From: Artemia franciscana
Lineage: Eukaryota > Arthropoda > Branchiopoda > Anostraca > Artemiidae
Reading direction: 5' to 3'
NCBI RefSeq assembly: GCF_032884065.1
Contig: NC_088873.1
Span: 29,869,658-29,933,657 of the forward strand
Length of the DNA: 64,000 bases
Shown: positions 1,152-57,100 of the stretch, piece after piece
Layout: the number at the start of each line of letters is the position of its first letter
Position numbering within the stretch: position 1 is the stretch's first letter
The notes under the pieces: generated by a model
Told to the model about the DNA's origin: nothing
What the model saw: the letters and a program-made list of their open reading frames with translations, nothing else
Database searches by the model: none
Translations under genes and position numbers: made by a program

Positions 1152-1400
1152 TCAAACAGTTCGTGCTAACGAACTGTAGTAAGGAGCGACCCGGCTAAAT
1201 GGCAACCAAAACTCTAAAAAATGGGGTTTTGATATCAATAGCTACATCAAAAGATTTGCATTTTAATGTTGATTTTAAATATATAAGTTTAATCAAGTTT
1301 AGTCTTACGAATCAAAAGTTACGAGCCTTAGAAAATTTGCCTTATTTTATAAAATAGGGGAAAACAACCCCTAAAAGTCATAGAACCTTAACAAAAATCA

Positions 1401-1708
1401 CACCATCAGATTCAGCGTACCAGAGAACTCTACTGTAGAAGTTTCAAGCTCCTATCTACAAAAATGTGGAATTCCGTATTTTTTGCCAGAAGGCAAATCA
1501 CGGGTGCGTGTTTATTTGTTTGTTTGTTTTTTTTTTTTTTTTTTTTTTTTTTCACACCATCAGATTCAGCGTACCAGAGAACTCTACTGTAGAAGTTTCA
1601 AGCTCCTATCTACAAAAATGTGGAATTCCGTATTTTTTGCCAGAAGGCAAATCACGGGTGCGCGTTTATTTGTTTGTTTTTTTTTTTTTTGTTTTTTTTT
1701 CCCAAGTG
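1401..1708 (+). repeat. 154-bp tandem duplication inside HPE1
   Basis: CACCATCAGATTCAGCGTAC recurs at 1401 and 1555, and both copies run through GTTTATTTGTTTGTTT into a T-run. The T-run is the probable recombination or slippage junction. Confidence 0.9.
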
Positions 1709-2716
1709 GTCATCATATCGACCAAGTAGTCGTAGAATGTCGCAAGAGGGCTCATTCTAACGGAAATGAAAAGTTCTAGTGCCCTTTTTAAGTGACCAAA
1801 AAAATTGGAGGGCACCTAAGCCCCCTCCAACGCTCATTTTGTCTCCAAAGTCAACGGGTAAAAATTTTGAGATAGCCATTTTGTTTTGCATAGTCAAAAA
1901 CCATATTAACTATGTCTTTGGGAATGACTTACTCCCCTACAGTCCCTGGGGGAGGGGTTGCAAGTTACAAACTTCGGCCAGTGTTTATATATAATAATGG
2001 TTATTGGGAAGTGTACAGCTTTTTCAGGGGATTTTTTTTTTGTTTTGGGGGTAGGGTTGAGGGGAAGGAGCTATGTGGGAGGATCTTTCCTTGGAGAAAT
2101 ATGTCATGGGGGAACAGAAATTCAATGAAAAGGGCGTAGGATTTTCTAAAATTACTAAAAAAAAACAATACAAAAATAAACATGGAAAAGTTTTTTCAAT
2201 TGAAAGTAAGAAGTAGCATTGAAACTTAAAACGAACAGAGATTATTACGCACATGAGAGGTTTTAAAAATACTTTAGGATAAAGAGCGAGGTATTTAGGA
2301 GGAGATAGATACCTCGCTCTTTATGCTATAATATCTTTACTCATTTCAACTATTTATTTTGCGGCCATTCGGATTCAGTGGTCATTCTTAAAGAATTGGG
2401 ACAGAACTTATGGTTTAGTGTAAAGAGCGAGGTATTAACGAGGGGACAAACCCCCCTCATATACATAATACAAATTTCAGAATATTACGTAAGCTAATTC
2501 TTAAGTTACGTATATCTTTTTTACTAAAACCGAAAAAACTAGGCTTTCCCCACCCCTTATTTCTCAAAATCGTCTGATCAAAACTAAGAAAAAGCCATTT
2601 AGCCAAAAAGGAATTAAATGCAAGTTTCATATTAATAATTCATGTGTGGAGAGTCAAAATCAAACATGCATTAATTCAAAAACGTTCAAAAATTACATAA
2701 AAAAAATTAGTTCTTT

Positions 2717-2968
2717 TTAACTGAAAGTAAGGAGCGACATTAAAACTTAAAACGAACAGAAATTACTCCGTATATGAAATCGGTTGTCCCCTCAGCAATC
2801 TCTCGCTCTTTACGCTAAAGTTTGACTCTTTGCCACAATTCTGCTTTTTAAAACAATTAAAAGCTTTAGCGTAAAGAGCGAGGGATTGCTGAGGGGACAA
2901 CCCATTTCATATACGGAGTTATTTCTGTTCGTTTTAAGTTTTAATGTCGCTCCTTACTTTCAGTTAAA
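2717..2968. repeat. Terminal palindrome of HPE1 (~104-bp arms)
   Basis: The left arm reads AACTGAAAGTAAGGAGCGAC ... TCGCTCTTTACGCTAAAG. The right arm is its reverse complement, from CTTTAGCGTAAAGAGCGAGG to GTCGCTCCTTACTTTCAGTT. The arms share copy-specific bases such as CAGCAATC/GATTGCTG. Confidence 0.9.
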
Positions 2969-2992
2969 AAAAAACTAGTTTTTTTTATGTAA

Positions 2993-8021: not shown

Positions 8022-10059
8022 GATTACTCCGTATATGAAATGGGTTGTCCCCTCCGCAATCCCTCGCTCTTTACGCTAAAGCTTTTAATTGTTTTAAAAA
8101 GTAGAATTGTGGCAAAGAGTCAAACTTTAGCGTAAAGAGCGAGGGATTGCGGAGGGGACAACCCATTTCATATACGGAGTAATTTCTGTTCGTTTTAAGT
8201 TTAAATGTCGCTCCTTACTTTCAGCTGAAAAAATTAGTTTTTTTTTTATTTAATTTCTGAACGTTTTTGAATTAATGCATGTTTGGTTTTGGCTCTCCGC
8301 ACATAAATTATTAAAATGAAATTTGTATATTAATTCTTTTTTTGGCTAAATGGCTTTCTCTTAGTTTTGATCAGAAGATTTTGAGAAATAAGGGGTGGAG
8401 AAGGAGGCCTAGTTGCCCTCCAATTTTTCGGTTACTTAAAACGGCAACTAGAACTTTTAATTTTTAACGAACGTTTTTATTAGTAAAAAATATACGTAAC
8501 TTAAGAATTAACTTACGTAACAAACTTTCATAACCTTATATTTTTATTATGTATACGAGGGGGTTTGTACCCTCGTTAATACCTCGCTCTTTACACTAAA
8601 TCGTAAGTTTTGTCCCAATTCTTTAAGAATGACCCCTGAATCAGAAAGGCAGTAGAAAAAATAGTTGAAATTACTAAAAATACTTTAGCATTAAGAGCAA
8701 GGTATTTATCTCCTCCTAAATACCTCGCTCTTTATGCTAAAGTATTTTTAGAACCCCTCATATGCGTAATAATCTCTATTCGTTTTAAGTTTCAATGCTA
8801 CTTCTTCCTTTCATTTGAAAAAACGTTTTCATGTTTATTTTTCATTGTTTTCTTATAGTAATACTAGAGAATCCTGCGCCCTTTTCATTGAATTTTTCTT
8901 CCCCTATGACAGATTCCTCCAAGGAAAGATCCTCCAACATAGCCCCCTCTCCTCAGCCCCACCACCAAACAAAATAAATCCCCCTGAAAACGTCTGTATA
9001 CTTCCCAATAACCATTGCTATATGTAAACACTGGTCAATGTTTGTAACTTGCAGCCCCTCCCCCAGGGATTGTGGGGAGTAATTCATCGCCAAAGACATA
9101 GTTATTATGGTTTTCGACTATGTTGAACAAGATGGCTATCTCAAAATTTTGATCCGTTGACTTTGGGAAAAAATGAGCGTGGGAGGGGGCCTAGATGCCC
9201 TCCAATTTTTTTGGTCACTTAAAAAGGGCACTAGAACTTTTCATTTCCGTTAGAATGAGCCCTCTTGCGACGTTCTAGGACCACTTGGTCGATACGATGA
9301 CCCCTGGAAAAGAAACAAAAAAACACGCACTCGTGATTTGTCTTCTGGCAAAAAATACAAAATTCCACATTTTCGTAGATAGGAGCTTGAAACTTCTACA
9401 ATAGGGTTCTCTGATACGCTGAATCTGATGGTGTCATTTTCGTTTAGATCTTACGACTTTTAGGGGGTGTTTCCCCCTATTTTCCTAAATAAGGCAAATT
9501 TTCTCAGGCTCGTAACTTTTTATGGGTAAGACTAAACTTGATGAAACTTATATATTTAAAATCAGCATTAAAATGCGATTCTTTTGATGTAGCTATTGAT
9601 ATAAAACCTTTAGAGTTTCAATTTTTTAGAGTTTTGGTTACTATTGAGCCGGACCACTTGGTCGATACGATGACCCCTAGGGAAAAAAAAAAACAAATAA
9701 ACACGCACCCGTGATTTGTCTTCTGGCAAAAAATACGAAATTCCACATTTGTGTAGATAGGAGCTTGAAAATTTTGCTACATAGTTCTCTGATACGCCAA
9801 AGGCGATGATGTGATTTTCGTTAAGATTCTGTGACTTTTAGGGGGTGTTTCCCCCTATTTCTAAAATAAGGCAAATTTTTTCAGGCTCGTAACTTTTGAT
9901 GACAAAGACTAAATTTGATGAAACTTATATATTTAAAATCAGCATGAAAATGCGATTCTTTTGATGTAGCTATTGGTACCAAAAGTCCATTTTTTAGAGT
10001 TTTGGTCACTATTGAGCCGGGTCGCTCCTTACTACAGTTCGTTACCACGAACTGTTTGA
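8022..10059 (-). mobile_element. HPE2 (reverse orientation, outer palindrome arm truncated)
   Basis: Reading the - strand, it starts with the hairpin end at 10059 (TCAAACAGTTCGTGGTAACG) and runs to the palindrome at about 8022-8230. There the outer arm is cut off in the middle of ATTACTCCGTATATGAAATG. A second hairpin lies at 8674-8742. A 373-bp tandem duplication (CCACTTGGTCGATACGATGA at 9281 and 9654) lengthens it. No coding sequence. Confidence 0.85.
9278..10023. repeat. 373-bp tandem duplication inside HPE2
   Basis: The block from the polypyrimidine segment to GAGCCGG is present twice in a row, with moderate divergence between the copies. The junction is at GAGCCGGACCACTTGG near 9645-9660, where GGGTCGCTCC would be expected. 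Confidence 0.85.
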
Positions 10060-10665: not shown

Positions 10666-13600
10666 CTAAAAATAATTCAAGGTATCAATACAAAATCTAA
10701 AATAGTCCAAGCGTAAACAATGTATATTAAACAACATGATTATATAGTATACAACTAATGTAGAATATATAAAACTGAACGTGAGACAAATAATTTTGAT
10801 AAAAAAAACCAATGAGCTTGGAATAACCAATCTTTTCAATTATTTTCGGAAGAAAGATAATTCCAAAAAATGTTTTTTCTACAACGGTTTAAGACTAAGA
10901 CAATTAGCACTAATTATATCTCTTAATTCGATACAATGAATGATTTAGAAAATAGGCTCACAATATACGTCGGATATTTTCTTACATTCTTTTTTCGTTA
11001 ACAAAATAAAAAGACAATGCTTATAAATAATGGCTGGCATTTAAATCCCTGGAGTTCACCCCCCCCCAGAAATACTCCCTTGGAAAATACCCCCCGGAAA
11101 ATGCCCCACGTGCAAAAAACGGAAAATATTTCCCCCGGAAAATAACACCCACGGAAAACGATCCCCATAAAATACCCCCGTGGAAAACCCCCTTACCCAC
11201 GGAAAATACCTCCTGGAGAATATCTTCCATGGAACCCCCCTTCCAAGAAATACCCAAGTGGGAAAAACCCCACGGAAAATACCCACCCCCGGAAAATACC
11301 CTTCCCCGTGGGAAATAAGGCTTTCCAAATTCGGGATGTTTTATTTGATTTTTTTTCAAATAAAGGGGGAAGGGAATTTTTTTTCAGTAAAGGGGAAATT
11401 TTTTCAAATAGGGGGAAAGGAATTTCAGTACTTACTCAAGTTTACGCTGCGCATAACTCAAGAACAAACTAGTTTCTTCTTTAATTTCTTCATTACCTTA
11501 GGAGCAAATTTGGACAATATATTAAAAAATTAGGGGGGGGGGTAAAATATAGCAGGTCTGTGCGCAGAATGTGTTGCGTAAAATTATTCTGCATATTATG
11601 AATTAAGAAATGTTTTCTATTTTCAAGCTATCCAAATACTCTATCCCCTCCCTCCCTTATGTGCAAAAATATAGCCCAATTTACATATTTTCTATCTGTT
11701 CTTTCACTTGTCTTTGTCTTGTCTCGAGCTAAATTGAGAGAAACTACCAAAGAAACTATATTTTATGTGGGGTATTTTTCGGGGGGAGGGATATTTTATA
11801 GGGGCTGGCAAACGCTGGAGGGAGCGTAAACGCCTAGAGCCCTTATAAACATTATGAATCAGGACATGGTGAATGTGACACGGTGCTAAAAATAAGGATT
11901 GTCAAATTGGTTCAAGAGCCAAATCTCCAAGACTTAGTCGTAGTGACTTGATAAATTCGGTTTTTTCTGACTAGTTTTGGAAATGAATACATTTAAAAAT
12001 GTCAGTGTTTTCCCAAAGTGTATTATATCCTGTTTTTTTCAGCTCCAAAAATAATTTGTAATTGAAGCTTTTGATATGTGAGTCAGTTACGTCTTAGATT
12101 AATTTATGTTATATAACTTAGGAGAATAGGTGTATTGGAGCCAAGTTAAAACCATAAAATTTGAAATCCAAACAATCTGCGGTAGAAAAATTTGAACAAG
12201 CAATAGCTCGTGGTGATAGTGACTGAAACTTGTAGAATAGGAACTGGATAACACTTATGCATAAAAAATAATAATTTTTGCATAGAGATTCTACATGTAT
12301 AACAATTTACTCGGTTTAAAGTTACCCAGCAAAAGTCAATAGCCAGAGAGGTTTGCTGGGATGTTGAAAATAAGGCGAAGTGCTCACAACAGGGCATATA
12401 ACTATTATGACAGTTAGGTCTATACTATCATAGAAAGTGCAGCAGAAACTCATCTAGCAGAAGTTTTAAGCCTGTATCTAAAAAAGATTCGTCATCTTGT
12501 CTTTTTTTTGAAAAGAATAGTCACGGAGGCATTTTTATTAGAGTTTTTTTTTCTTTCAGGGTTTATCATGCCAAACTACATGTCTGAAAAATTGAGAGAA
12601 TCCTTTTTGAAACAGAAACAGAAAGTATTAGTGTCTTTTCTAATAAGAAAACAATTGTTTAACAGCAAAGTATTGTTTTCCGTTATTTTGTGGCACGAAA
12701 GCACAATTTTGCTCCTATGACAGCCAAAGAACACTTCATCAAATATTTTAGCATGGCTCATCCAATTAGTTGTCAGCAATTCGATGTCTTAAAAATTTCT
12801 GTGAATCAATGTCGGCTGGCCGTCTCAAAGACAAATGCTTCATTAGCATATTTTAAAAGAACTACAGGGAATTTCACAGGGAACTTACGGGGAAAAAACT
12901 ACAGGGAATATTTTAAAGAACTAAAATGAAATTTCCTTAAAAGTTTTGTAAACAAAAATTGGAATTCCTAAATGTATCAAGAATTCAAAAAAGTAACGAT
13001 AGATTAGTTTAAAATAAAGAAAAATATAATCTTTAGCTGATCATTAAGTAAAGTACTGTCTATTCAATACATCTACAGCATATAAAAACAACAATGGGTA
13101 AGACTTTGGGAATTTATCTAAGACAGTACATATTCTTTAAACATTAAATAATTATTTCGGCTCTATATCGAAGAGCAGTCCTCAACTATGATCATATACA
13201 GATAAAATAAGACTCACAATAAAATACAATCGTTAAAAGTAAAATGGAAATATTAAGACTGTCCTAGAATCATTATTTCAAGGAGACTCAACCAGGACTG
13301 AATGGGTAAGACTAAACTTGATGAAACTTATATATTTAAAATCAGCATTAAAATGCGATTCTTTTGATGTAGCTATTGATATCAAAATTCAATTTTTTAG
13401 AGTTTTGGTTACTATTGAGCCGGGTCGCTCCTTACTACAGTTCGTTACCACGAACTGTTTGAAAAAAAGATAAACTATTTTAGTGTCACTGAAATGATAA
13501 CTAGCCGTATCGTGAAAAGGGACATCATTTTTTTTTCTTCAAAGGGTAGGAATACTTCAAACTTCCGAACTGTTTAGAATTTTTAGCTTTTACTTAAAGA

Positions 13601-16600: not shown

Positions 16601-19600
16601 ATGTGTTTGGAATTAAGCGAGCTTTCTTTTTTAATATGAAAAAATACTTTATCTTGAAAAAATTTCGAGTTTTTAGCTTTTCTATTAGAAATTTCTTGAC
16701 AAAAATCTGATTTTTTTTTAACTGCAGTAAAAAGTGCACTATTGTTTTTGCAAATAAAAATCATATTCGTGTTGCGCCAAGTCTCTTCTTTCTATTGTTG
16801 TAAGAGTATGGTGGATTTGACCAATCTTATCTGTAAAAAATCGGAATCGTCGAACCCCATTATAAGCCAAACTTGGTGTTTTTGGCCTATATCTCAGAAA
16901 CGCCCCAACGGCAAACATGCGCCCAACGGTATTTGTTTTCAGCCTGGTCGACTACCATCGCATCCACTAATATTTGTGTACCTTCCGGCATGGGTATATA
17001 TATATATATTGCCTTAGCATCATTACTTCTTAACAAAAGTTCAGGCAAGATTGTGTGATTTTACACGCTAAAAAGGTTCATTCCTTTCACAAACTGTATT
17101 TATTAAGAATCGGAATAATTTCTTATTGCGATATTTGCCTTCTCTGCAGCTAATCTTGTAATTCTTTTGAGAGAAACCCCCAAGCACGATTTACCTACCT
17201 TATATACCAAAAATTACTTCAAAACTGAAAAAAGTTTATTTAAAAAATAATTTACGTGTTGTCTTCACATGTAATTCAAGTATAATGAATGTTCTCAATT
17301 CCGGTAAGGATTAAACCCCAGTTACTCGTCTAAGAGGGGTGTATTAAATACCACGTAGTTGGAAATTATTACATTGGTCGAACCCACCAAAATTTAGGAA
17401 GAAAACTATAGCAACACAAAAAAAGTATTGAAAAAGCATTAAAATCTAAAAAATAGCTCCACATCTTTCGATTCAGCTTAAGCAATCATATTTTTGAAAA
17501 TCCTAACCATTATGTTTTATTTAACGAAACAATTCTAGTGAACAGTGACCTAGGAATCTGGAAGATGCAGCTAGACGGCATAATTGTAAAATATTATACA
17601 TGCATGTTATGCATGCATCAATTAATAAATTAAGAGGGAATAGTCAATCCGGACTAGTCCCAGTTAAAAATTGGAATAGGATTTTGAGAATGTGCTAAAC
17701 AGCGATACAGCTGCAGGAAAAGATATAGATGAAAATGAAAAAGTTTGTGATACCTTGGATGTGAAGGAAGATTTGTTTAGTGAGGAAGAATTAGCGACAT
17801 TACTAAAAGGATTAAAAAATAATAAGGCCCCAGGTACTGATAGTATGATTAATAAGTTTCTTACTGAAGATAATGACTATAATTTATGAAAAAAGGGAAG
17901 TACCTAATGATTCTAGGAAAACCTTAATTAAACCAACGTATAAGAAAGGTGATAACAGTGAGCGTTGTAATTACCGAGGCATTAATCTGGTCTCTGTAAG
18001 TAGCAAATTACTTAGTAACATGATAATTTTTGGACTGAGAGACGCTGTAGACAAAGTTTTAAGGGATGGATAGTGCGGTTTTAGAAAAGGTAGAGAATTT
18101 GTCGACCAAGTTTTCATTATTAGGTTAATAATTGAGAAGTCCCTTCGTTGTCAACTATCTTTGGTCCTCAGTTTTATCGATTATGAGCAAGCCTTCGATT
18201 CTGTTGATAGAGGAGTGTTAGCAAAGGTCTAATCCTGAAATGGTATACCAGAACAATACATTAAATTGATTATTGTTATCTACGAGAATAATACTGCTGC
18301 AGTTAAGGTAGGAGATGAGAAATTAGGCACCTGGTTTTGTATTAAATCAGAAGTTAAGCAGGATTTCGTTCTATCCTCTTTTATGCGGATCATTTTGATG
18401 GATTTAATCTTAAAAAGCACAGGAAAGGCAATTGGAGACCACTGATTAAGATCAGTAAAGACTGGGGGAGAAGTGAAGATGTTAAAAGTTGAATAACTAA
18501 GGCTCAGGGTGTTTTTCCACAGTAAAAAAAAAATGGAAAAATAGAAAGATAAGTCTGCAAACCAAGATTAGAATATTGGGAGCCACAGTGATGACAAGTG
18601 GTCAAATATGGCTCTGAAGCATGGACGCTCCGAAAATCAGACGAAAATTTACTCGAAGTTTTCCAGAGAAATTGCCTACAGATTGTTCTGGGTACCCGGC
18701 TGACTGACCATATTTCAAAAAGTAGGTTGTACGAAAAGTGTAGTTCAATTCCACTTTCTAGGGCTATAATAAAAGAAAGGTTGAGTTAGCTAGGCCACGT
18801 TCTGCGGATGAAGGATGACAGATTGCCGAAGATTGTCCTTCTTGGCCAACCGTCTGGGGCTAAACGGAAAGCAGGTCATCCTCGTCTGGGTTGGGAGAAT
18901 GTCATAAATAAAGATTTAAAGGAAATGGAAACTTCCTTGGAGGCTGTAAAGAGGGAGACCTTGAATAGATTAGGTCGGAGGAGGAGCGAGCGTAGCTGTG
19001 TTGGCCTCAGGCGGCTTGGTGAACAGTGAGTTATTAGTAATAGTAGTAGTAGGAATCAAACGTGCAAGGGAAATGCGTAAAGAGCAAGGGATTGCGGAGG
19101 GGACAACCCATTTCATATACGGAGTAATTTCTGTTCGTTTTAAGTTTTAATGTCGCTCCTTAGTTTCAGTTTAAAAAACTAGTTTTTTTATTTAATTTCT
19201 GAACATTTTTGAATTAATGCATTTTTGATTTTGGCTCTCCGGACATAAATTATTAAAATGAAATTTTCATATTAATTCTTTTTTGGCTAAATGGCTTTCT
19301 CTTACTTTTGATCAGAAGATTTTGAGAAATAAGGGGTGGGGAAAGCGGCCTAGTTGCCCTCCAAATTTTCGGTTACTTAAAAAGGCAACTAGAGCTTTTA
19401 ATTTTTGGCGAACGATTTTATTAGTAAAAAATATACGTAACTTAAGAATTAACTTACGTAACAAACTTTTATATTCTTATTTTTTTATTATGTATATGAA
19501 AGGGTTTGTCCCCTCGTCAATACCTCACTCTTTACACTAAATCTTAAGTTTAGTCCAAATTCTTTAAGAATGACCCCTGAATCAGAAAGGCCGTAGAATA

Positions 19601-21908
19601 AATAGTTGAAATTACTAAAAATACTTTAGCTTAGAAAGCAAGTTATTTATCTCCTTCTAAATACCTCGCTCTTTATGCTAAAGTATTTTTAGAACCCCTC
19701 ATGTGCGTAATAATCTCTGTTCGTTTTAAGTTTTAATGCTACTCCTTACTTTCAGTTGAAAAAAACTTTTTAATGTTTATTTTTTCATTTGTTTTTTTAT
19801 ATTAATGCTAGAAAATCCCGCGCCCTTTTCATTGAATTTCTCTTCCCCCATCACATATTCCTCCAAGGTAAGATCCTCCCACATAGCCCCCTCTCATCAC
19901 CCCCACCCCAAAACCAAAAAAATCCCCCTGAAAACGTCTGTACACTTCCCAATAACCATTACTGTATGTAAACACTGGACAAAGTTTGTAAATTGCAGCC
20001 CCTACCCCAGGGACTTTGGAGGAGTGAGTCATTCCAAAGACATAGTTATTATGGTTTTCGACTATGCGGAACAAAATGACTGTCTCAAAATTTTGATCCG
20101 TTGACTTTGGGAAAAAAAATGAGCGTGAGAGGGGGCCTAGGTGCCCTCCAATTTTTTTGGTTACTTAAAAAGGGCACTAGAACTTTTCATTTCCGTTAGA
20201 ATGAGCCCTCTTGCGAGATCCTAGGAACACTTGGTCGATACAATAACCCCTGGGAAAAAAAACAAAAATAAACAAACAAACAAACAAACACGCAACCGTG
20301 ATCTGTCTTCTGGCAAAAAATACAAAATTCCACATTTTTGTACGTAGGAGCCTGAAATTTTTGCTACAGGGTTCTCTGATACGCTGAATGCGATGGTGTG
20401 ATTTTCGTTAAGATTATTTGACTTTTAGGGGGTGTTTCCTCCTATTTTTTAAAATAAGGCAAATTTTCTCAGGCTCGTAACTTTTGATGAAAAATATTAA
20501 ATTTGATGAAACATATATACTTAGAATCAGCATAAAAATTCAATTCTTTTGATGTATCTTTTAGCATCAAAATTCCGTTTTTTAGAGTTTCGTTTACTAT
20601 TGAGCCGGGTCGCTCCTTACTACAGTTCGTTACCACGAACTATTTGATTGTTTGAACTTTTGGTCTGTATTTCCCTTTTTTTTAAATCATTCAATATTTC
20701 TCAGGCTCGTAAATTTTGACACCTAACATTAAACATATTAATTTTATAAATTTGGACTCAGCATAAAAAAAGTCTTTTGGTATTTTAATTGTTATCAAAA
20801 TTTATTTTGCTAGAGGTCCGGCTACTATTTGGTAGAGTTGCTCTTTTACAGTTTGTTACCACGAACTGTTTGATAGTGAATAAAGAACTCCTATAAACTC
20901 TTCAAATTGATAAAATTTGGAAATCAATGCTACAGTGATGGAAAATTTGATAAGAATTTAAGGGCACGAGCAGAGATACACTGAGTGGTACAATTATGTT
21001 GTCTGTATTAAATAATTTCAACCAAAATGATAACCAGGATGCTTACTTCATTTATTGCAAGATTTTTCAACTTTTAATCATTTAATGCTTACAAGTTGAA
21101 ATTTAGTTGAAATAGTTGGAAACTAAAAGTTGAAATAGTTGGATGCTATTGCAAGAAAAGTCCAAGATATGCGCATGCAGGATTAGCCTAAAAAGGGAGT
21201 CTGTTAGAACAGCAAGTTTGTTTTTTTTTTCAGTCAATCCTCCGTTGTAAGACGTCGACGGCATAAGTTATCCCAGGTTAAAAATAATAACACATAAAAC
21301 CGTAACTAATTCGATTGTTAGGTTGCTTGGTGTGGGTAATATATTGGCCTAAAGCTGTTGCGCTTTTATATTTTATTTTGCTCAGTCAATAGATTCGTTT
21401 TGTTTGCAATGGCTTTGACTTTTTGACTTTGGCATTAAGACAGACTTTTGAATCATAGCTATTTTTTTTTTAAATATGTTGCACTGAGCAGTCACAAAAA
21501 AAGACGTACTGTTTTGTTCAGTTCTTCAGAAAAATAACAAAAGAAGTATTTCTACATCAAATTGACCCCAAAACAGCATTTTGCCAAATTTTTAAGGGGC
21601 CAAAAATTTGAGAATTGTCCCTTTTGTCTCATACCAATGACACCAGTAGCATAAATTTTGATTGGTGATGCTTACATTGAACACTATTTTCCAGCAAGAA
21701 CGGTTAACGTTCAATAGCATTGAAGCTTATAACAGGGTAATTTAGTCAACGATTTCTTTACTAGTAACCGGTAACAACATTACAGGAGTCTTTTGCATGT
21801 AGGCTCATGCAATAGGTTCTTAAAAAAAAAACTTACCTCCCAAGAAAAATTTACTTTCTGCGTCTTCATCTATAGCATCTTCACCAAACTCAATATCTTG
21901 AGAATAAA
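10568..21908 (-). CDS. Small Gly/Tyr/Arg-rich protein gene, C-terminal two exons (5' incomplete)
   Basis: Two - strand exons (21908-21837, 10665-10568) join in frame through a phase-1 intron of ~11.2 kb. The acceptor of the upstream exon is TTTTCAG, its donor is GTAAGT, and the downstream acceptor ends TAG. The joined product is an acidic segment (YSQDIEFGEDAIDEDAES, then KFFLGG) followed by a 31-residue tail of RGYGG, YRGYGGY, RRPYGGY and GYRPYG repeats ending at TAA. An AATAAA signal lies 16 bp past the stop. The composition resembles the C-termini of secreted Gly/Tyr-rich cuticular, antimicrobial or neuropeptide-like precursors of invertebrates, but I recognise no specific family. At least one upstream exon (probably signal peptide, ending in phase 1) is missing. 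The intron carries the whole 10.7-21.8 kb repeat cluster. Confidence 0.75.
11041..11330. repeat. Degenerate C-rich minisatellite (GGAAAATACCCC-type)
   Basis: About fifteen imperfect copies of (C)nGGAAAATA spaced about 14-25 bp, with 4-9-base C runs. A similar motif in the opposite sense (GGGGTATTTTTCGGGGGGAG) is at 11770, and related text is at 55770-55990. Open frames through it are artefacts. Confidence 0.8.
11440..13300. other. AT-rich intronic spacer
   Basis: It lies within the large intron of the Gly/Tyr-rich gene. A small local repeat (CTACAGGGAA..TTT near 12860-12910) is visible. No exon or known protein was found. Confidence 0.35.
13303..13462 (-). mobile_element. HPE3, hairpin-end fragment
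   Basis: About 160 bp almost identical to the end of HPE2 (TGGGTAAGACTAAACTTGAT to GTTACCACGAACTGTTTGA). Only the hairpin terminus is present. Confidence 0.85.
13930..16245 (-). pseudogene. Broken multicopy gene of the 'HEEADTR / GCDTTS / Cys-rich tail' type
   Basis: Read on the - strand in several frames. At about 16245-16003, a segment has WESHLTATAQMLPYLVVVDHP, then QYTRCLLPI (family pattern DW.LHL..V..MLPYF...H.NYARW). The region around 15764-15558 contains ARDIFTTCGNPFSRVDL. At 14905-14441 the clearest part has HEVADQHLMTHAKYA (pattern HEEADTRLLLHA..A), HANDTDVAV (pattern SSDTDVLVL), IPVH, and LSGFDTTNF (pattern SGCDTTS). At about 14200-14100 it has the GW region, and at about 14040-13935 a tail CRCKSGRCRKDCSCSK. 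Stops and frameshifts break it throughout. From memory, such proteins are abundant in invertebrate genomes in mobile-element-like copy numbers and contain a FEN/PIN-like fold. I cannot name the element class. Confidence 0.65.
16440..17655. other. AT-rich intronic spacer
   Basis: Nothing recognised apart from a short (TA)n run at about 16996-17010. Confidence 0.35.
17660..19052 (+). mobile_element. RTE-like LINE copy A (internally deleted, broken ORF2)
   Basis: It encodes RT landmarks in order, with stops and frameshifts: a LKNNKAPGTDS segment, KTLIKPTYKKGD, YRGINLVSVSSKLLSNMI, CGFRKGR, LSFIDYEQAFDSVDRG (RT motif A region) and IKSEVKQDFVLSSF (motif B). The YADD region and about 250 bp are then missing, and the frame resumes at GRSEDVKS. 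The 3' part has VVKYGSEAW-like (VKYGSEAWTLRKSDENLL), [25 protein letters not shown] and [18 protein letters not shown], ending CVGLRRLG..., a stop and a (TAG/GTA)n tail. Canonical RTE elements share this layout. The clade is from family knowledge, not a tree. Confidence 0.85.
19076..20647 (-). mobile_element. HPE4
   Basis: The hairpin end is at 20647 (TCAAATAGTTCGTGGTAACG on the - strand, one stem base changed). The palindrome end is truncated to a single arm near 19076, a few bases from the LINE A tail. The internal hairpin is at 19613-19692. Confidence 0.85.
20690..20873 (-). mobile_element. HPE4b, older diverged hairpin end
   Basis: TTCTCAGGCTCGTAAATTTT ... GTTACCACGAACTGTTTGA repeats the terminal part of HPE4 with many substitutions. 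It directly abuts HPE4, so two HPE termini of different age lie in tandem. Confidence 0.75.
20880..21830. other. Intronic spacer before the acidic exon
   Basis: AT-rich, with no repeat family or exon recognised. A local duplication of AAATAGTTGGA is near 21110-21145. Confidence 0.35.
21837..21908 (-). CDS. Gly/Tyr-rich protein gene, acidic internal exon (24 codons)
   Basis: Bounded on the - strand by TTTTCAG (plus-strand 21909-21911 is CTG) and a consensus GTAAGT donor (plus-strand ACTTAC at 21831-21836). Only one frame is open: two leading bases, then YSQDIEFGEDAIDEDAESKF, then FLG plus one base. The E/D-rich stretch could be a propeptide or linker. The preceding exon must end in phase 1. 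I searched the nearby sequence to the right by eye and found no convincing signal-peptide exon. Confidence 0.7.
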
Positions 21909-22910: not shown

Positions 22911-24559
22911 TCAAACAGTTCGTGGTAACGAACTGTAGTAAGGAGCGACCCGGCTCAACAGTAACCAAAACTCTAAAAAATAGAATTTTGATATCAATAG
23001 CTACATCAAAAGAATTGCATTTTAATGCTGATTTTAAATATATAAGTTTCATCAAGTTTAGTCTTACCCATCAAAAGTTACGAGCCTGAGAAAATTTACC
23101 TTATTTAGGAAAATAGGGGGAAACACCCCCGAACAGTCGTAGGATCTTAACAAAAATGACACCATCAGATTCAGCGTATTAGAGAACCCTACTGTAGAAG
23201 TTTCAAGCTCCTATCTACAAAAATGTGGAATTTTGTATTTTTTGCCAGAAGACAAATCACGGGTGCGTGTTTATTTGTTTGTTTGTTTTTTGTTTTTGTT
23301 TTCCCAGGGGTCATCGTATCAATCAAGTAGTCCTAGAATGTCGCAAGAGGGCTCATTCTAACGGAAATGAAAAGTTCTAGTGCCCTTTTTAAGTGACCAA
23401 AAAAATTGGAGGGCATCTAGGCCCCCTCCCACGCTCAGTTTTTCCCAAAGTCAACGGATCAAAATTTTGAGATAGCCATTTTGTTCAACATAGTCGAAAG
23501 CCATAATAACTATGTCTTTGGGGATGACTTACTCCCCCACAATCCCTGGGGGAGGGGCTGCAAGTTACAAACTTTGACCAGTGTTTATATATAGTAATGG
23601 TTATTGGGAAGTGTACGGACGTTTTCAGGGGGATTTTATTTTGTTTGGAGGTATGGCTGAGGAGAGGGGGCTATGTTGGAGGATCTTTCCTTGGAGGAAT
23701 CCGTCATGGGGGAAGAAAAATTCAATGAAAAGGGCGCAGGATTCTCTAGCATTACTATACGAAAACAATGAAAAATAAACATGAAAACGTTTTTTCAAAT
23801 GAAAGGAAGAAGTAGCATTGAAACTTAAAACGAACAGAGATTATTACGCATATGAGGGGTTCTAAAAATACTTTAGCATAAAGAGCGAGGTATTTAGGAG
23901 GAGATAAATACCTTGCTCTTTATGCTAAAGTATTTTTAGTAATTTCAACTATTTATTCTACGGCCTTTTTGATTCAGGGGTCATTCTTAAAGAATTGGGA
24001 CAAAACTTACGATTTAGTGTAAAGAGTGAGGTATTAACGAGGGTACAAACCCCCTCGTATACATAATAAAAATATAAGGTTATGAAAGTTTGTTACGTAA
24101 GTTAATTCTTGAGTCACGTATATTTTTTACTAATAAAAACGTTCGTTAAAAATTAAAAGTTCTAGTTGCCTTTTTAAGTAACCGAAAAATGGGAGGGCAG
24201 CTAGCCCTCCTTCTCCACCCCTTATTTCTCAAAATTGTCTGATCAAAACTAAGAGAAAGCCATTTAGCCAAAAAAAGAATTAATATACAAATTTCATTTT
24301 AATAATTTATGTGCGGAGAACCAAAACCAAACATGCATTAATTCAAAAACGTTCAGAAATTAAATAAAAAAAAACTAATTTTTTTAGCTGAAAGTAAGGA
24401 GCGACATTAAAACTTAAAACGAACAGAAATTACTCCGTATATGAAATGGGTTGTCCCCTCCGCAATCCCTCGCTCTTTACGCTAAAGTTTGACTCTTTGC
24501 CACAATCCTACTTTTTGAAACAATTAAAAGCTTTAGCGTAAAGAGCAAGGGATTGCGGA
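22911..24559 (+). mobile_element. HPE5
   Basis: It starts TCAAACAGTTCGTGGTAACG at 22911, has the internal hairpin at 23862-23940, and has the palindrome left arm plus only a small part of the right arm. It is cut at about 24559 (GGGATTGCGG), where repeat R begins. No coding capacity. Confidence 0.85.
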
Positions 24560-28560: not shown

Positions 28561-29376
28561 ACGCTTATATTCGGTTTTAGTTTTACGTTAAAGTGTGAGC
28601 AAAATGAATGAATTTTTAGAGGTTTTACGAGTTCAGGGTGCTAAAATAGGCTTGAAAATTAATGTTAAGAAGACTAAGTCACTAAGGCTAGGAATAAGTG
28701 AAGATGAACAGGTGACATTAGGTAACGAAAAGATTGATCAAGTTGGGAGCTTCAGTTACTTTGGTAGTATTATTAGTAAAGATGGTGGGAGCAGTGAAGA
28801 TGTTAAAAGTAGAATAGCTAAGGCCCAGGGTGTTTTTTCACAGTTAAAAAAAGTTTGGAAGAATAGAAAGATAAGTCTACAAACCAAGATTAGAATATTA
28901 GAAGCTACAGTGATGACAGTGGTCAAATATGGCTCTAAAGCATGGGCACTCTGAAAAGCAGATGAAAATTTACTAGATGTTTTCCAGAGAAATTGCCTAC
29001 GGATTGTTCTGGGTACCCGGCTGACTGACCGTATTTCAAACAGTAGGTTGTACGAAAAGTGTGGTTCAATCCCTTTTTCTGGGGCTATAATGAAAGAAAG
29101 GTTGAGATGGCTAGGCCACGTTCTAAGGATGAAGGATGACAGATTACCGAAGATTGTCCTTTTTGGCCAACCGTCTGGGGCTACACGGAAAGCAGGTCGT
29201 CCTTGTCTGGGTTGGGAGGATGTCATAAATAAAGATTTAAAGGAAATGGGAACTTCCTGGGAGGGTGTAAAGAGGGAGGCTTTAAATAGATTAGGTTGGA
29301 GGAGGAGCGTGCGTAGCTGTGTTGGCCTCAGGCGGCTTGGTGCTGCAGTGAGTTATTAGTAGTAGTAGTAGTAGTT
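28561..29376 (+). mobile_element. RTE-like LINE copy B (5'-truncated, inserted into LINE F)
   Basis: About 260 codons read in one frame from SKMNEFLEVLRVQGAKIGLK to the stop after [11 protein letters not shown], broken only by a TGA at 28952 where other copies have CGA (a CpG transition). It then has a TTATTAGTAGTAGTAGTAGT tail. It is the best-preserved copy of the family here. The palm C-terminal, thumb and typical [14 protein letters not shown] segment are intact. Its two flanks are one LINE F reading frame region. Confidence 0.88.
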
Positions 29377-29739: not shown

Positions 29740-30930
29740 TCAAACAGTCTGTGGTAACGAACTGTAAGTAAGCAGTGATCCGGCTCAATATTAACTGACA
29801 TTCTAAAAAACGAAATTTTGACACAAATAGATACATCAAAAGAATTTGATTTATGTTTTGATTTTAAATATATAACTTTCATCAAGTTTCGTCCTATTCA
29901 TCAAAAGTTACGAGCCTGAGAAAATTTGTCGAATTTTCAAAAAAAGAAGAAAACACCGACTAAAAGTCATAGAATATTAATGAAAATTACTCAATCAGAT
30001 TCAGCTTATCAGAGAGCCCTACTCTGCATAGGTTTGAAGCTCCTATCGGGAAAAATGTGGAATTTTGTGTTTTTTGCCAGAAGAAAGATCAAGGATGCGT
30101 GTTTATTTGTTTTTTACCCCTGGGGTGATCGTGTCGACCCACTGGTCTTAGAATGTCAAAAAAGGGCTCATTCGAACGGAAACTAAAAGTTTCATTGCCC
30201 TTTTTAGGTGACCGAAAACTGGAGGGTAACCAGGCCCCCTTCCACGTTCATGTATTTTCCCAAAGTCACCGGATCAAAATTTTGACACAGCCATTTTGTT
30301 CAACATAGTTGAAAAATTTAATAACTATATCTTTGAGGACGACTTAATCCCCCACAATCCCAGGGGGAAGGGCTGCAAGTTATGAACTTTGCCCATTGTT
30401 TGTATAGAGTATTGGTTATTGGGAACTATACAGACATTTCCAGTGGGGATTTTTCTGGTGGTGGGGGGGGGGGAGTCGTCGGGAAAAGGCACATGCAAGG
30501 ATCTTTCTTGGAGGAATATTTCAAGGGGGAAGAGGATTTCCATGAAGGAGGCCATGACTTCCCAGCATTATTTAAACACAATCAGAAATCATTTTTTTTA
30601 AGTAGGTTTTTTCAACTGAAAGTAAGGAGCAACATTAAAACTTAAAACGAACAGAAATTATTACGTATACGAGGGGGTTCATCCCCTCGTTAATATTTCA
30701 CTCTTTACGCTAAATTAATTTCGAAAGAGCTATTAATTCTAATAAAACGGCTTTTGGGACTCAGGGGGAATTATTTAGGAATTGGAACAAAATTCAAACT
30801 CTTGTGTAAAGAGCATGGTATTGACAAGGGGGTGAACCCCCTCATATTACGAATATGAGGGAATTTCTTCCCCCCGTCAGTTCCTCGGTCTTTACGATAA
30901 AGTTAGAATTTTGTTGAATAATGCCTATTA
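29740..30930 (+). mobile_element. HPE6 (older, diverged)
   Basis: It starts TCAAACAGTCTGTGGTAACG and follows the HPE order (GATCCGGCTCAATA, TCAAAAGTTACGAGCCTGAG, CAGATTCAGC, ATTTTTCCCAAAGTC-like, GAAAGTAAGGAGCAACATTA). Substitutions are many, and the end grades into LINE C at about 30945. Confidence 0.75.
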
Positions 30931-30956: not shown

Positions 30957-33690
30957 TGTGTCCAATTTTCCCTAACGATTTTAGGAAAACCTTAATTAAA
31001 CAACAATATAAGAAAGGCGACAAGAGTGAGTGTCTTAAGTATCGAAGCATTAATCTGGTCTCTGTAGGTAGCAAATTACTTAGTAATATGATACTTTTTA
31101 GACGTGGTGATGCTGTAGACAAAGTTTTAATAGAAGAACAGTGCGTTTTTACGCACTGCGTTTTTACGGTTGGCTTTTAGAGGTTTTGCAACTTCAGGGT
31201 GCTAGAATAGGTTTGACAATTAATGTTAAGAAGAGTAAGTCACTAAGGCTAGGAATAAGTGAAGATGAAAAAGTGACGTTGGGTAACGAAAAGATTGACC
31301 AAGTGGGCAGTTTCACTCACCTTGGTAGTATCAAACAGTTCGTGGTAACGAACTGTAGTAAGGAGCGACCCGGCTCAATAGCAAACGAAACTCTAAAAAA
31401 CGGAATTTCGATGCTAAAAGATATATCAAAAGAATCGGATTTTTATGCTGATTTTAAATATATAAGTTTCATCAAATTTAGTCTTTGTCATCAAAAGTTA
31501 CGAGCCTGAGAAAATTTGCCTTATTTTGGAAAATAGGGGGTAACACCCCCTAAAAGTCATAGGATCTTAACAAAAATTACACCATCGCATTCAGCGTATC
31601 AGAGAACCCTACAGAAAAAATTTCAAGGTCCAATCTACAAAAATGTGGAATTTCGTATTTTTTGCCAGAAGACAAATCACGGGTGCGTGTTTATTTGTTT
31701 TTTTGTTTTTTTGTTTTTTTTTTTGTTTTTTTTTTCTTTTTCCCAGGGGTCATCGTATCGACCAAGTGGTCCTAGAGTGTTGCAAAAGGGCTCATTCTAA
31801 CGGAAATGAAAAGTTCTAGTGCCCTTTTTAAGTGACCAAAAAAATCGGAGGGCACCTAGGCCCCCTCCCACGCTCATTTTTTTCCAAACGTCAACGGATC
31901 AAAATTTTGAGATAGCCATTTTGTTCCGCATAGTCGAAAACCATAATAACTATGTCTTTGGAGATGACTTACCCCCCACAGTCCCTGGGGGAGGGGCTGC
32001 AAGTTACAAACTTTGACCAATGTTTACATACAGTAATGGTTACTGGGAAGTGTACCGACGTTATCAGGGGGATTTTTTTGGTTTGGGTGTGGGGTTCAGG
32101 GGAGGGGGCTATATGGGAGGATCTTTCCTTGGAGGAATATTTCATGGGGGAAGAGAAATTCAATGAAAAGGGCGCAGGACTTTCTAGCATTACTATAAAA
32201 AAAAAAACAATGAAAATGTAAACATGAAAAAGTTTTTTCAATTGAAAGTAAGGAGAAGCATTAAAGCTTAAAACGAACAGAGATTATTACGCATATGAGG
32301 GGTTCTGGAAATACTCTAGTATAAAGAGCGAGGTATTTAGGATGAGATAAATACTTCGCTCTTTATGCTAAAATTTTTTTAAATAATTTCAACTATTTAT
32401 TCTACGGCCTTTCTGATTCAGGGGTCATTCTTAAAGAATTGGGATAAAACAAGATTTAGTGTGAAGAGCGAGGTATTAACGAGGGGACCAACCCCCTCAT
32501 ATATACAATCAAAAATATAAGAATATAAAAGTTTGTTACGTAAGTTAATTCTTAAGTTACGTATTTTTTTTACTAATAAAAACGTTCGTTAAAAATAAAA
32601 GATCTAGTTGCCTTTTTAAGTAACCAAAAAATTGGAGGGCAACTAGGCCTCCTTCCCCACCCCTTATTTCTCAAAATCGGTTGATCAAAACTAAGAGAAA
32701 GCCATTTAGCCAAAAAAAGAATTAATATAAAAATTTATTTTTTATAATTTATGTACGGAGAGCCAAAATCAGACATGCATTAATTCAAAAACTTTCAGAA
32801 ATTAAATAAAAAAACAAGTTTTTTTAAATGAAAGTAAGGAGCGACATTAAAACTTAAAACGAACAGAAATTACTCCGTATATGAAAGGGGCTTTTCCTCC
32901 TCGACATCCCGCTCCTTCCGCTAAAGTTTGATTCTTTCTCGCAACTCTACTTTTTAAAACAATAAAAACTTTAGCGTAAGGAGCGGGGTGTCGAGGAGGA
33001 AAAGCCCCTTTTATATACGGAGTAATTTCTGTTCGTTTTAAGTTTTAATGTCGCTCCTTACTTTCATTTAAAAAAACTTGTTTTTTTATTTAATTATTAG
33101 TAAGGACGGTGGGAGCAGTGAAGATTTTGAAAGCAGAATAATCAAGGCCCAGGTTGTTTTTTCACAGTTAAAAAACGTTCGGAAGAATAGGAAGATAATT
33201 CTGCAAACCAAGATTAGAATATTGGAAGCTACAGTGATGACAGTGGACAAATATGGCTCTGAAGAATGGGCGCTCCGAAAGCGGATGAAAATTTACTAGA
33301 TGTTTTCCAGAGAAATTACCTAAGGATTGCTCTAGGTACCCGGCTGACTGACCGTATTTCAAACAGAAGGTCTTACGAAAAATGTGGTTCAATCCTGCTT
33401 TCTAGGGCTACAATGAAAGAAAGGTAGAGATGGCTAGGCCACGTTCTGCGGATGAAGCATGAGTGATTGCCGAAGATTGTCCTTTTTGGCCAACCGTCTG
33501 GGGCTTCACAGAAAGCAGGTCGCCCTCGTTTTGGGTGGGAGGATTTCATTAATAAAGACTTAATGTAAATGGAAATTTATTGGGAGGGTGTAAAGAGGGA
33601 GGCCTTGAATAGAGTATGTTGGAGGAGGAACGTTCTTAGCTGTGTTGCCCTCAGGCGGTTTGGTGGTGCGGTGAATTATTATTAGAAGTA
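30957..33690 (+). mobile_element. RTE-like LINE copy C, split by HPE7
   Basis: The 5' part (30957-31330) reads DFRKTLIKQQYKKGDKSECL, INLVSVGSKLLSNMILF, then a short filler (31142-31175) replacing about 500 bp, then LLEVLQLQGARIGL and VTLGNEKIDQVGSFTHLGS. The frame is interrupted at GGTAGTA (31330) and resumes at TTATTAGTAAGGACGG (33094) as ISKDGGSSEDF. The 3' part contains stops and ends in a (TAG)n-like tail at 33690. Confidence 0.88.
31331..33093 (+). mobile_element. HPE7, complete copy with base-exact ends
   Basis: It lies inside a LINE whose uninterrupted sequence is known from copy B (GGTAGTATTATTAGTAA). The left flank is GGTAGTA, the right flank TTATTAG, and the element runs from TCAAACAGTTCGTGG to TTTTTTTATTTAA, 1763 bp. 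The insertion is between A and T with at most a 1-bp duplication. The terminal stem-loop is at 31335-31356, the internal hairpin at about 32305-32385, and the palindrome arms at 32823-32926 and 32969-33072. Confidence 0.92.
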
Positions 33691-33730
33691 GTAGTTAAGC
33701 AGCATCTTAACTAAGATTTTCGTATGATAA

Positions 33731-34530
33731 TTAAATAAAAAAAAAACAAGTTTTTTTAACTGAAAATAAGGAGCAAGATTAAAACTCAAAACGAACAGAA
33801 TTTTTTTTGTATATGAAAGGGGCTGTTCCCTCTTCAACACCCCGCTCTTTAGGCTTAATTTTTTTATTGTTTTAAAAAGTAGAGTTGTGAGAAAGATTCA
33901 AACTTTAGCGCAAAGAGCAGGGCGTTGAGGAGGGGACACCCCCCTTCATATACGGAACAATTTCTGTTTGTTTTAAGTTTTAATGTTGCTCCTTACTTTC
34001 AGTTGAAAAATATGTGTTTTTTATTTAATTTCTGAGCGTCTTTGAATTAATCCAGATTTAGATTAGGATCATCGCACATGAATAATCAAAACGAAATTTG
34101 CCTATTAATTTTACTTTTTTTGGCTAAATGGTTTTCGCAAAATTTTGATCGGACGATTTGGAGAAAAAGGGGGGGTCTAGTTTACCTCTATTTTTTGGTT
34201 AAAAAGAACAGTAGAATTTTTATGTTTATTTAACAACGTTTATTTATGTTTATTTAAGATATACGTAACTTACGTAACGAAATTCTATACTCCTATTTTT
34301 TTACACATATGAGAGGGTTCACCCCCTCGTCAGTGCCTCGCTCGTAACGCCAAAGTTCAAATTTTGTACTAACTCCTTGAGAATGACCCCTGAATTACAA
34401 AGGCCGTTTAATTAGAATAGATACCTCTTTTGAAATAATCAAAAATTGTTTAGCGTAAAGAGCAAGGTATTAAGAAGAGGACGAACCCCCTCATATGCGA
34501 AGTAATTTCTGTTCGTTTTAAGTTTTAACC
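33731..34530 (-). mobile_element. HPE8, truncated by a LINE
   Basis: On the + strand it begins TTAAATAAAAAAAAAACAAG after an A, shows the palindrome (about 33750-34010, arms now imperfect), and runs to GTTTTAAGTTTTAA at about 34530, where the LINE D 3' end begins. The hairpin terminus is missing. Confidence 0.75.
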
Positions 34531-54100: not shown

Positions 54101-57100
54101 GCTTGTGTGCCCCTTTGGAAGGAAAAAAATTGTCAAAAAAATAAGTTAGGGAATATTTAAAAAAAAAATTGCATGAATTGTGGAACAAGTGTCAGCTAAG
54201 GTGCATGATCCTTCGCTCTTCAGAGCTATTAGACATTCCCGCAATACTTCATACGACAATAATAGGGAAACCTAAGTTCATAGCATATTGCATAGAATTG
54301 TATATTCCCCCTGTAATTTCTGTCAAATTCTATATCGCTGCATTGACTTCTGCTACTTCCTATATCACCGTAATTGTTTCTGCGACGTCATATATCCCGA
54401 TTTTGCGTTTGTAACTTTCAACCTATGTTTCAGCACTTCTGCCCCCCCCCCATCACGCAGATGGATGACATGCCATTAACATGTTTTTATTTGTCAATCA
54501 TCTTGCAAAAGGGAGGTTTTGCATGAGAATAATATCTGTTCTTATTTGAAGATCCTCATGCGCATGGTTGTTCCTCCTATATTAACCTCTTGGAGAGGGG
54601 AATAATTTCAATTTATTACAAACTTTACTCCAGTTTTCTACAACGAAATTATAGTAAATACGTTTCTATGCTTCAAATGTGCACCATTCAGTTGGGTGGC
54701 TTAGTCTTTGCTAAAAAAATAGGCTATCTCCATCAAAAGTTCACAAAAAGAGCTGTATATAGGGCTTTTAACTGTGAATCTTTTTAAAAGACATTTTTGA
54801 GACTAATATATTCTTAGACATTTTAAGACTTTCTGTGTAATTTTTCTAAGGCTTCTATAATACCTGGCAAGCCTCGTATTTACTGAGAGGCACATGATAT
54901 CTTCCTGTCCTTACTCTCCCATTACCTTCCTTGGCCTTTTTGGCACCAGTGACCCCTTGGATCCCATGCCCTCCTGATTCCCCTCTGGCTCTCCATAACT
55001 CTGTATCCCCTTGGATCCTAGAGCTCTCTCAAGTTCGTTATCTCTTTGAATTTTATTCAGTTGGACTTCCTAGACTCAGCTATTGATGAATTATAGCGTA
55101 ATTAAGACAATAAATCAGTTAGAACGATATTAAGTCTATTCAAGACCCATTTACCTGTTATTATAAGTATAAAGAATGTGAAATCTTACTTGATTTCGAA
55201 TGTAGACAATTAGATCTCCTGAAATTCATGGAACAAATATTTGAAAAGATGTTATTTGTAACCCTGTCATTTCTGAATCTAGTTACTATAGGTAATAAAC
55301 ATAGAATTTATTCAAGACTGGACAAGAACATGAATTTTGAAGGTGACGAGGCAAAAGTGTACTTGTGTGTATTTATCGCTATTGTATATCGATATTACTC
55401 TTTAATTTCTTTTGTTTGCCAACTTTTTCATTTTTCTAGAACATACTTACCCTATCTTATTTTAAATTTAAAAAAACAACATTTTTCAACTGAAAGTAAG
55501 GAGCAACATTAAAACTTAAAACAAACAGAAATTAATGCTTGTAAAATTCCTCCTTGGGAAGTTAGAATTGCGTGATATCCTCCCCCCCCTTTCCCCCTCT
55601 CTGAAAACCTCTCTGATAAGTTCTTGCGGAAAGTTTTGTCTGAAAACTTCTTACTTTCATTTGATAAAGACTAGTTTTTATCTAATTTCTGAACGTTTTT
55701 CAGATCATCTCGGAAATTCTTCCTCTGTTAAGAGTTCTTCTCAGAAATCTCCCCTCTCCTAATGGAATTTTTTTCTCGTGAAAACAAACCTCACGGAAAA
55801 ATCACCCATACATTTCCAACCACGCTAAAAATTTCCCTCAGAACTTTTCCACATGCAAAATTGAGTCACCAAAGAGAAAGCAGGACAAATAACAAGAAAT
55901 TTTGTTGAAGAATTATGGCAAATTTCCCCCGTGAAAAATTCCCCTGGAAAATTCATTGCCGGAACCTCCCTCCCCGTGGAAACTTCTTGTAGTGGAAAAT
56001 CTTCCCCTTATTGAAATCTCCCTCCATAAAAATGTCTGCATAGTTCTCAATAACAAATACTATGTGTAAACAATGTACAAATTTCGTAACTTAAACCCTT
56101 CCCCCAGGGGCTATAAGGGACCGTGTCATCCCCAGAGGTAAGATCATTGGATCTTTCAACTCTTCTGAACAAAATCGGTATCTAAGAATTGGAGTTTTGG
56201 TATCTCAGAATTTGGTTTGGTTCATTTTGAGGTAAAACCGGGTGTAGGAGGGGGGCTAGTAGCCTCTAGTCTTTTTGGTCACATAAATACGGCCCTAAAA
56301 CATTTATTATCCGTTTGAATGAAACCTCTTCCGATTTTCTAGAATCGATCAATGCTTCGATACGACGGTTTCTTCCGATCAATGTTCAATACGATCACCC
56401 TTGGGCGGGGGGGGGGGGGACAAATAAACACCGTGATCTTAACTCCTGGCAAAAAAATCAGCTTTTTACAGGTAGTAGCTAGAAACGCTTTTGGGAGTAA
56501 ACCCCTCTTTTTCAAAAATCAGGGAAATTTTCTTAGGCCCATAGCTTCTGATGGGTAACACTAGACTAAATAAATCTTGTATATTTGGAATCAGTATAAA
56601 AATTCTGTTGTTTTTTGAAATCAAATCATGTTTATTGATATCAAAACTATGGTTTAGTTATGATATCAGAAATATTTATATTGATGTAAAAAAATCCTGT
56701 TTTTGGAGTTTTTGTTGCTGTTGGGCCATGTGGCTCCATTCTTATAGTTTGTTATTACAAACTGTTTGACTTCTAAGGGGACTGTCATAATATGTACCAG
56801 CAAATTCCATTTTTAGCCAAAAAAGGCCAAATCTTCCAAACCCTCATTTTAATGCAAATTGAAATTTTTCTTTTGTGACGGTTTTGCTCAAAATTTCATT
56901 TTCACCATAAGCAGGACAAAACCTTGGAATTCTAACTTTCTAGCCAAAATAGGGGGAAACCCCCCCCCCCGGCCCTCATTTTAGCGTAATATAAAATTCT
57001 TATTATCCTCTTTTTTATAGCATTGTAAGGGATTTAGTTTTATAAAGGCGACCGTAATCTCTTGTCGTCAAAACATTTCAGAGGAGGTCACTGGATCTCA

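Follow-up and report, generated by a model that had tools for sequence, protein, structure and literature searches.

What kind of mobile element is the non-coding hairpin insert that splits a LINE in the genome of Artemia franciscana, and by what route could it have arrived there? The question is raised by a 64,000-bp stretch of this genome (hereafter the window), whose GC content of 35.9% compares with the 34.7% reported for the chromosome-level assembly of the species (PMC11492255).

Boundaries of the insert

LINE copy C reads GGTAGTA up to position 31330 and resumes with TTATTAG at 33094, and LINE copy B carries the same region uninterrupted as GGTAGTATTATTAG. The insert in copy C, designated c7, is 1763 bp long, starts TCAAACAG, ends TTTATTTAA, and has an A and a T of the LINE frame on its left and right sides, respectively.

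31331..33093, + strand: copy c7, the full element TCAAACAG...TTTATTTAA, with an empty site in LINE copy B and ends common to other copies
28769..28770, + strand: the empty site, an A/T junction in the uninterrupted paralogue (LINE copy B)

In BLAST alignments, the left flank of c7 (31175-31330) matches 28614-28769 and the right flank (33094-33493) matches 28770-29170, and these two matches are directly adjacent. Copy B and the adjacent flank matches at 28769/28770 thus bear out the base-exact boundaries that had been predicted from the LINE interruption. The prediction that at most one base is duplicated at c7 was also right, since the insert accounts for just one of the two Ts at its junctions (that in TC and that following the terminal AA). 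The LINE itself is present in four window copies (17903-19050, 28614-29374, 31150-33695, and 59429-59866), with a TAG-repeat tail where this end was read; copy D also spans the insertion region, but its junction sequence differs. The window further contains a satellite-like tandem array of 295-bp units (2.4 copies) at 61809-62504.

Copies in the window and their right ends

About ten copies or pieces of the element lie in the window, c7 among them. The others are as follows.

1..92, + strand: copy c0, of which the window edge leaves just the right end
1152..2992, + strand: copy c1, with both ends and a tandem duplication of 154 bp inside
8023..10059, - strand: copy c2, 5' end exact, 3' end stopping within the right palindrome arm
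13308..13462, - strand: copy c3, first 155 bp only
19075..20647, - strand: copy c4, 5' end exact, 3' end stopping in the left palindrome arm
20684..20873, - strand: older copy c4old, represented by its 5' end, directly preceding c4
22911..24559, + strand: copy c5, 5' end exact, 3' end stopping in the right palindrome arm
29740..30847, + strand: old copy c6, 73% identical, exact at its 5' end
33731..34528, - strand: copy c8, with its right end but without the left part, where a LINE adjoins
55462..56769, - strand: copy c9, old and degenerate, both ends

Nine left ends in the window begin at the same base, with TCAAACAG in eight and TCAAATAG in c4, and all nine start with TC. Two of the copies, c4old and c6, are older and disturbed. 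The right ends are less regular. Copies c2, c3, c4, and c5 join an exact left end to an early right stop, which falls after 155 bases in c3, in the left arm of the terminal palindrome (see below) in c4, and in its right arm in c2 and c5. Only c5 clearly has a T following the break; this base is ambiguous but compatible with T in c2 and c3, and it is A in c4. Copy c8 shows the opposite arrangement, as does one copy from elsewhere in the genome (L031): the right end is present and the left part is missing.

Three side observations concern the same copies. Internal duplications occur in c1 (the 154-bp tandem, window 1398-1700) and in c2 (8023-10059), and one border lies in T-rich element positions 378-401. 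At 20647-20873, a young copy stands head-to-tail behind the 5' fragment of an older one, like the self-insertions reported for other Helitrons. A LINE-like coding end (34529-35025) adjoins c8 at the place where the left part of c8 is missing.

Ends, target sites, and empty sites of genomic copies

Searching the genome (1,270,528,402 bases in 6468 contigs) for similarity to the terminal palindrome gave 2028 first-look candidates, from which 40 places were scored; one is c7, and we examined the other 39. Selection by palindrome similarity biases these places toward young copies with a complete right end. A left-end pattern starting TCAAACAG, with up to 6 errors allowed, matched 34 left ends in the 39 places, where the match for L017 belongs to a neighbouring copy. 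All 34 start with TC within unrelated flanks, and the preceding base is A in 28, T in 4, and G in 2. Among the five places lacking a match, the stretches of L021, L029, and L034 had been cut on the wrong side, L024 begins with TCAAACAG after an A and has a deletion just behind it, and the fifth is L031.

At the other end, a strict right-end pattern matched in 34 of the 39 places, and the next base was T in all 34, compared to a background T frequency of 0.33. For L045 the strict pattern picked up an inverted internal copy; the true right end of L045 also has T as its next base. Three copies missed by the strict pattern (L022, L032, and L046) likewise end TTTATTTAA and then T, and the right ends of L020 and L034 are other than TTTATTTAA. 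Pairing of the two flanks in 29 copies (L045 included with the wrong end) gave A^T in 23, T^T in 4, and G^T in 2. These counts led us to replace T^T by A^T as the working target, and A^T is a preference rather than an absolute requirement.

The original prediction had noted that several other copies lack an A before TC. This is true of 4 of the 9 left ends in the window, 6 of the 34 further left ends, and 3 of the 5 in a spread sample of 48 kb taken from eight fixed places of the genome. The five left ends of the spread sample read TCAAA (4) or ACAAA (1) and are preceded by A (2), T (2), or G (1). In young copies, A before TC is preferred.

We looked in the 29 paired copies for a consistent target duplication of at least 4 bp, which would have spoken against the predicted ends, and found none. 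The two flanks match over 4 bp in four copies (L013, L014, L036, and L041; shuffled mean 0.64), three of which lie in TA or TCTA sequence, and in no copy do they match over 5 bp. Ends extending beyond those given for c7, which would have counted against them as well, were not seen in the copies examined. As a separate observation, L044 has a 12-base direct repeat, TGACGATATGAA, near both junctions.

Comparison of joined flanks identified an uninterrupted relative in the sequence examined for 3 of 31 tested copies (L013, L037, and L047), two of which, L037 and L047, are inserted into sequence from older members of this family. The best alignments of all three empty sites cross the junction at A^T without a gap or an extra base, although the L037 site lies in a run of Ts where some alignments shift by one base. 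With c7, there are four empty sites without duplication.

Terminal structures

Both ends of the element carry a hairpin and one member of a 13-bp subterminal inverted repeat.

31336..31355, + strand: 5' terminal hairpin CAGTTCGT-GGTA-ACGAACTG, fold z -3.5, stem exact in 27/28 genomic copies
31357..31369, + strand: 5' subterminal inverted repeat AGTAAGGAGCGAC, 13 bp, present in 26/28 copies
33050..33062, + strand: 3' subterminal inverted repeat GTCGCTCCTTACT, 31 nt inside the right end, present in 27/28 copies
33069..33088, + strand: short 3' hairpin with an A/T stem, 5 nt short of the right terminus, folded for six ends of identical sequence

The 5' hairpin is contained in the first 26 bases of c7. 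Covariation analysis of its stem found both sides changed in 2 of 90 cells, a value reached by 206 of 500 shuffles. The 13-bp repeat occurs at both ends in 25 of 28 copies, with AGTAAGGAGCGAC occupying element positions 27-39 and the complementary member lying 31-38 nt inside the right end. Among 19,600 random pairs of 60-mers from window 36-55 kb, only 7 reach a 13-base match, in a null whose longest match of 50 bases implies that it contains repeats itself. In the old copy c9, the inverted match between the ends is just 7 bases long.

The original prediction held that the stem-loop stands at the TC end rather than at the other; this was wrong, since the right end has its own short hairpin in addition to the 13-bp subterminal repeat. 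This right-hand hairpin is built entirely from A/T pairs (-1.5 kcal/mol under RNA parameters) and lies 5 nt from the end, compared to about 11 nt in canonical Helitrons. Full copies terminate in TTTAA, such that TTAA stands where a canonical Helitron has CTRR. An Rfam search gave 16 matches at E <= 0.5, none of them at the gathering score and none to a hammerhead; most were to miRNA models on palindromic parts. A tRNA search found none.

Classification of the element

Taken together, these features lead us to classify the c7 element as a non-autonomous, non-coding rolling-circle (Helitron-like) transposon of A. franciscana, with a probability of about 85%. The original prediction had left open a divergent rolling-circle element or an unclassified type. 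The first part stood, since the TC start, the A^T target, and the absence of both duplication and CTRR now extend to many more copies. The second is not needed, because the mixture of traits fits published non-canonical, Helitron2-like elements. We read the element as combining Helitron1 traits (TC start, A^T, no duplication) with traits of Helitron2 and Helentrons (subterminal repeats and hairpins at both ends). Without CTRR it is not a canonical Helitron, and with A^T instead of TT as its target it is not a typical Helentron derivative.

Several observations weigh against the rolling-circle reading. The right end is TTTAA, not CTRR, and the target A^T is not the TT of Helentrons. No autonomous element with these ends was found, and the RepHel family that was read has other ends (see below). 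Of the four truncated copies in the window, T after the break is clear in c5 only, and A follows in c4. L020 and L034 lack the TTTATTTAA end, and a loose right end alone leaves the missing left parts of L031 and c8 unexplained. Finally, A precedes the left end in only 2 of 5 cases in the spread sample. The weaker A preference in this sample and the copies without a left end slightly lowered our confidence and slightly raised the standing of a retroelement.

Such a retroelement would depend on a LINE and be read from the opposite strand. Its precise 3' end would then correspond to the TC hairpin, and target-primed reverse transcription would have produced the variable right ends by 5' truncation. 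The pairing of one exact with one ragged end in c2, c3, c4, and c5 looks as 5' truncation would, some LINE clades insert without target duplication, and a 3' stem-loop is known in some LINEs. However, both ends are defined in 28 measured copies (in a sample chosen for complete right ends), A^T is the usual pair at the two junctions, and the 13-bp inverted repeat links the two ends. Moreover, the one window LINE looked at for this purpose ends in TAG repeats, unlike the element. We consider a retroelement origin improbable, and the same alternative was raised and set aside for DINE-1 by Yang and Barbash (PMC2374699).

Still less probable is a MITE-like DNA transposon with subterminal inverted repeats that is moved by a DDE transposase. 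The 13-bp inverted repeats near both ends and the terminal palindrome would suit such an element, but these repeats lie inside the element, 26 nt from one end and 31 nt or more from the other, the very termini do not form inverted repeats, the empty sites show no duplication, and the variable right ends would be unexpected.

The giant 3' palindrome

The last ~290 bases of c7 form a near-perfect palindrome with 130-bp arms and a 36-base loop.

32800..32929, + strand: left arm of the giant terminal palindrome, which repeats the element's own 3' end in inverted orientation
32966..33095, + strand: right arm of the giant palindrome, bearing the 3' terminus; its last 2 bases are flank

The palindrome folds at -145.6 kcal/mol, compared to a shuffled mean of -29.3. 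Arm identity within the window is 127/130 in c7, 125/130 in c1, and 107/131 in the old copy c8, and in c2 and c5 only part of the right arm is present. Near the end of old copy c6 lies a different inverted repeat of 51 bases (window 30786-30915), and the wider family may have more than one kind of terminal palindrome.

In the 40 young copies, the two arms differ by 2.5% within a copy and by 1.5-2.3% between copies (excluding the outer, A/T-rich columns). An arm-specific marker, G in the left arm and A in the right, is retained in 35 of 36 unflipped copies, the exception being c7 itself with C and A. One variant is common to both arms, compared to a permuted mean of 4.3. In the remaining 4 of 40 copies (L017, L021, L029, and L034), the palindrome is inverted relative to the element body, and the arm markers are swapped in all four. 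The arm distances, the marker retention, and the swapped markers together imply that the palindrome is inherited as it stands, not rebuilt at each insertion, and that it can be inverted as a block. Three of the inverted-palindrome copies are ~90% identical to the c7 body and have a common variant, and L017 is 95-98% like c7; these two resemblance groups suggest that the palindrome probably inverted at least twice independently.

The least tenable alternative is a fold-back element that would regenerate the right arm of its palindrome through self-primed (snap-back) synthesis whenever it inserts. It was suggested by the window, where the arms of c7 (127/130) and c1 (125/130) are closer to each other than to those of other subfamilies, but the arms of old c8 are unlike (107/131), c2 and c5 are uninformative, and it is ruled out by the 40 genomic copies, in which the within-copy arm distance is not below the between-copy distance, the G/A marker is retained, and shared variants fall short of the permuted mean. 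This refutation applies to the young subfamily, and rarer arm conversion between subfamilies is possible.

RepHel genes and the search for a partner

A rolling-circle reading presupposes a RepHel protein acting in trans, and candidate sources abound in this genome. Helitron_like_N gave 7435 first-look candidates; all 150 of those that were scored exceed the family cut-off, two of them with an internal stop, compared to none in 14 control genomes. The part of the assembly paper that reports Helitrons puts them at 8.81% of the genome and gives no terminal structures (PMC11492255). Two RepHel proteins that we scanned combine Helitron_like_N with the beginning of a PIF1 helicase and, at the N-terminus, an STPR domain (PF21107). 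Relatives of one of these two, among the matches listed, are ~91-99% identical. Loci L056-L085 and L086-L089 represent a very abundant autonomous Helitron family with TC...CTAG ends, for which several open frames of 1500-1700 aa were listed.

The best-scoring RepHel family was read to its ends. It starts TCTATATATATAAAAA in two copies, at the point where their similarity begins, and one copy ends in a GC-rich hairpin and CTAG before T. Thus, the TCTATATATATAAAAA...CTAG family is a canonical Helitron without the ends of the c7 element. The search for an autonomous relative with the same ends, which had been proposed as a check, found none, with this one family read outward (5' end in two copies, 3' end in one). 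In 30 Rep loci (with 1.5 kb on each side of Rep, mostly short of the ends), 12 short matches to the element all fell in a T-rich stretch. Exact end patterns had no match in viral_contigs or genome_contigs, neither of which is an animal genome collection. Literature searches on Artemia or brine shrimp Helitrons, on the end sequence, and on crustacean palindromes found no description of the element.

Discussion

Judged by terminal sequence, the closest published termini are those of FoHeli1/2 and of DINE-1/HINE, and the ends of the c7 element are unusual. FoHeli1 and FoHeli2 of Fusarium oxysporum are described as Helitron2-like elements with a TCAG start, a 12-bp inverted repeat, a hairpin at each end, and an ATTTT terminus (PMC5148889). 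The c7 element resembles them in its TC start, its hairpins at both ends, the absence of CTRR, and an asymmetric inverted repeat of 12-13 bp whose 3' copy lies ~30-40 nt inside the end. It differs in ending TTTAA rather than ATTTT, in its mainly A^T rather than TNAT^T target, in its giant terminal palindrome, and in that no RepHel with its ends was found (PMC5148889).

Likewise, the element shares with the non-autonomous Helentrons DINE-1/HINE, as reported, a non-coding structure, high copy number, subterminal repeats of 13 bp, an inverted repeat close to the 5' end, a hairpin that follows the 3' subterminal repeat by a few nt, empty sites without target change, and an internal microsatellite, which is T-rich here and GTCY-rich in DINE-1/HINE (PMC4067079, PMC2374699). 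In contrast to DINE-1/HINE, its target is mainly A^T instead of TT (T^T in just 4 of 29 copies), the 5' repeat copy lies 26 nt inside the end instead of 0-4, the 3' terminus is duplicated as a 130-bp inverted arm, and no endonuclease-bearing partner was found (PMC4067079, PMC2374699). Canonical Helitron1 elements (Helraiser/Helibat) are like it in the 5'-TC, A^T, lack of duplication, a 3' hairpin (A/T-only and 5 nt from the end here), and a strict left and loose right end; unlike them, it lacks CTRR and has a 5' hairpin and an inverted repeat between its ends (PMC4778049). The termini of the CTAG Helitron family of the same genome are unlike those of the c7 element.

By analogy with experimentally tested Helitrons, a RepHel protein supplied in trans would nick at the 5'-TC end, a single strand would be peeled off, and unwinding would pause at the 3' hairpin or palindrome, which may act as the terminator. 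The strand of this presumed rolling-circle intermediate would then be joined to the target at A^T, less commonly at T^T or G^T, leaving no duplication. With a fixed left terminus and a loose right one, the process could end too early, frequently within the giant palindrome, and produce copies that begin exactly and break off irregularly. In Helraiser, as reported, the left terminus is essential, the right terminus is not strictly needed, and the hairpin is a termination signal; some truncated ends next to T arose from vectors lacking the hairpin or the right terminus, and among 395 copies in bats, 39 possess de novo 3' ends (PMC4778049). We infer that the breaks in the truncated copies come from premature termination, with later deletion as the alternative.

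We tentatively raise a more specific proposal, which we regard as doubtful at present: that the palindrome, having a complete 3' end in each arm, is a two-headed, invertible right terminus that can flip without costing the element its terminator. In that case, the element would belong to a distinct rolling-circle lineage marked by hybrid Helitron1/Helitron2 ends and a TTAA terminus, in which the duplicated terminator would stabilise mobility and cause frequent premature termination.

Sequence matching the family (E <= 1e-5) makes up 12.7% of the 48-kb spread sample (6100 of 48,000 bases in eight fixed places), and although this sample is small, the family may be a large part of the 1.27-Gb genome. 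The base-exact ends and target would let annotators place the element correctly. Moreover, the hybrid ends and the flippable, duplicated terminator would provide a natural test of how rolling-circle transposons set their loose 3' end.
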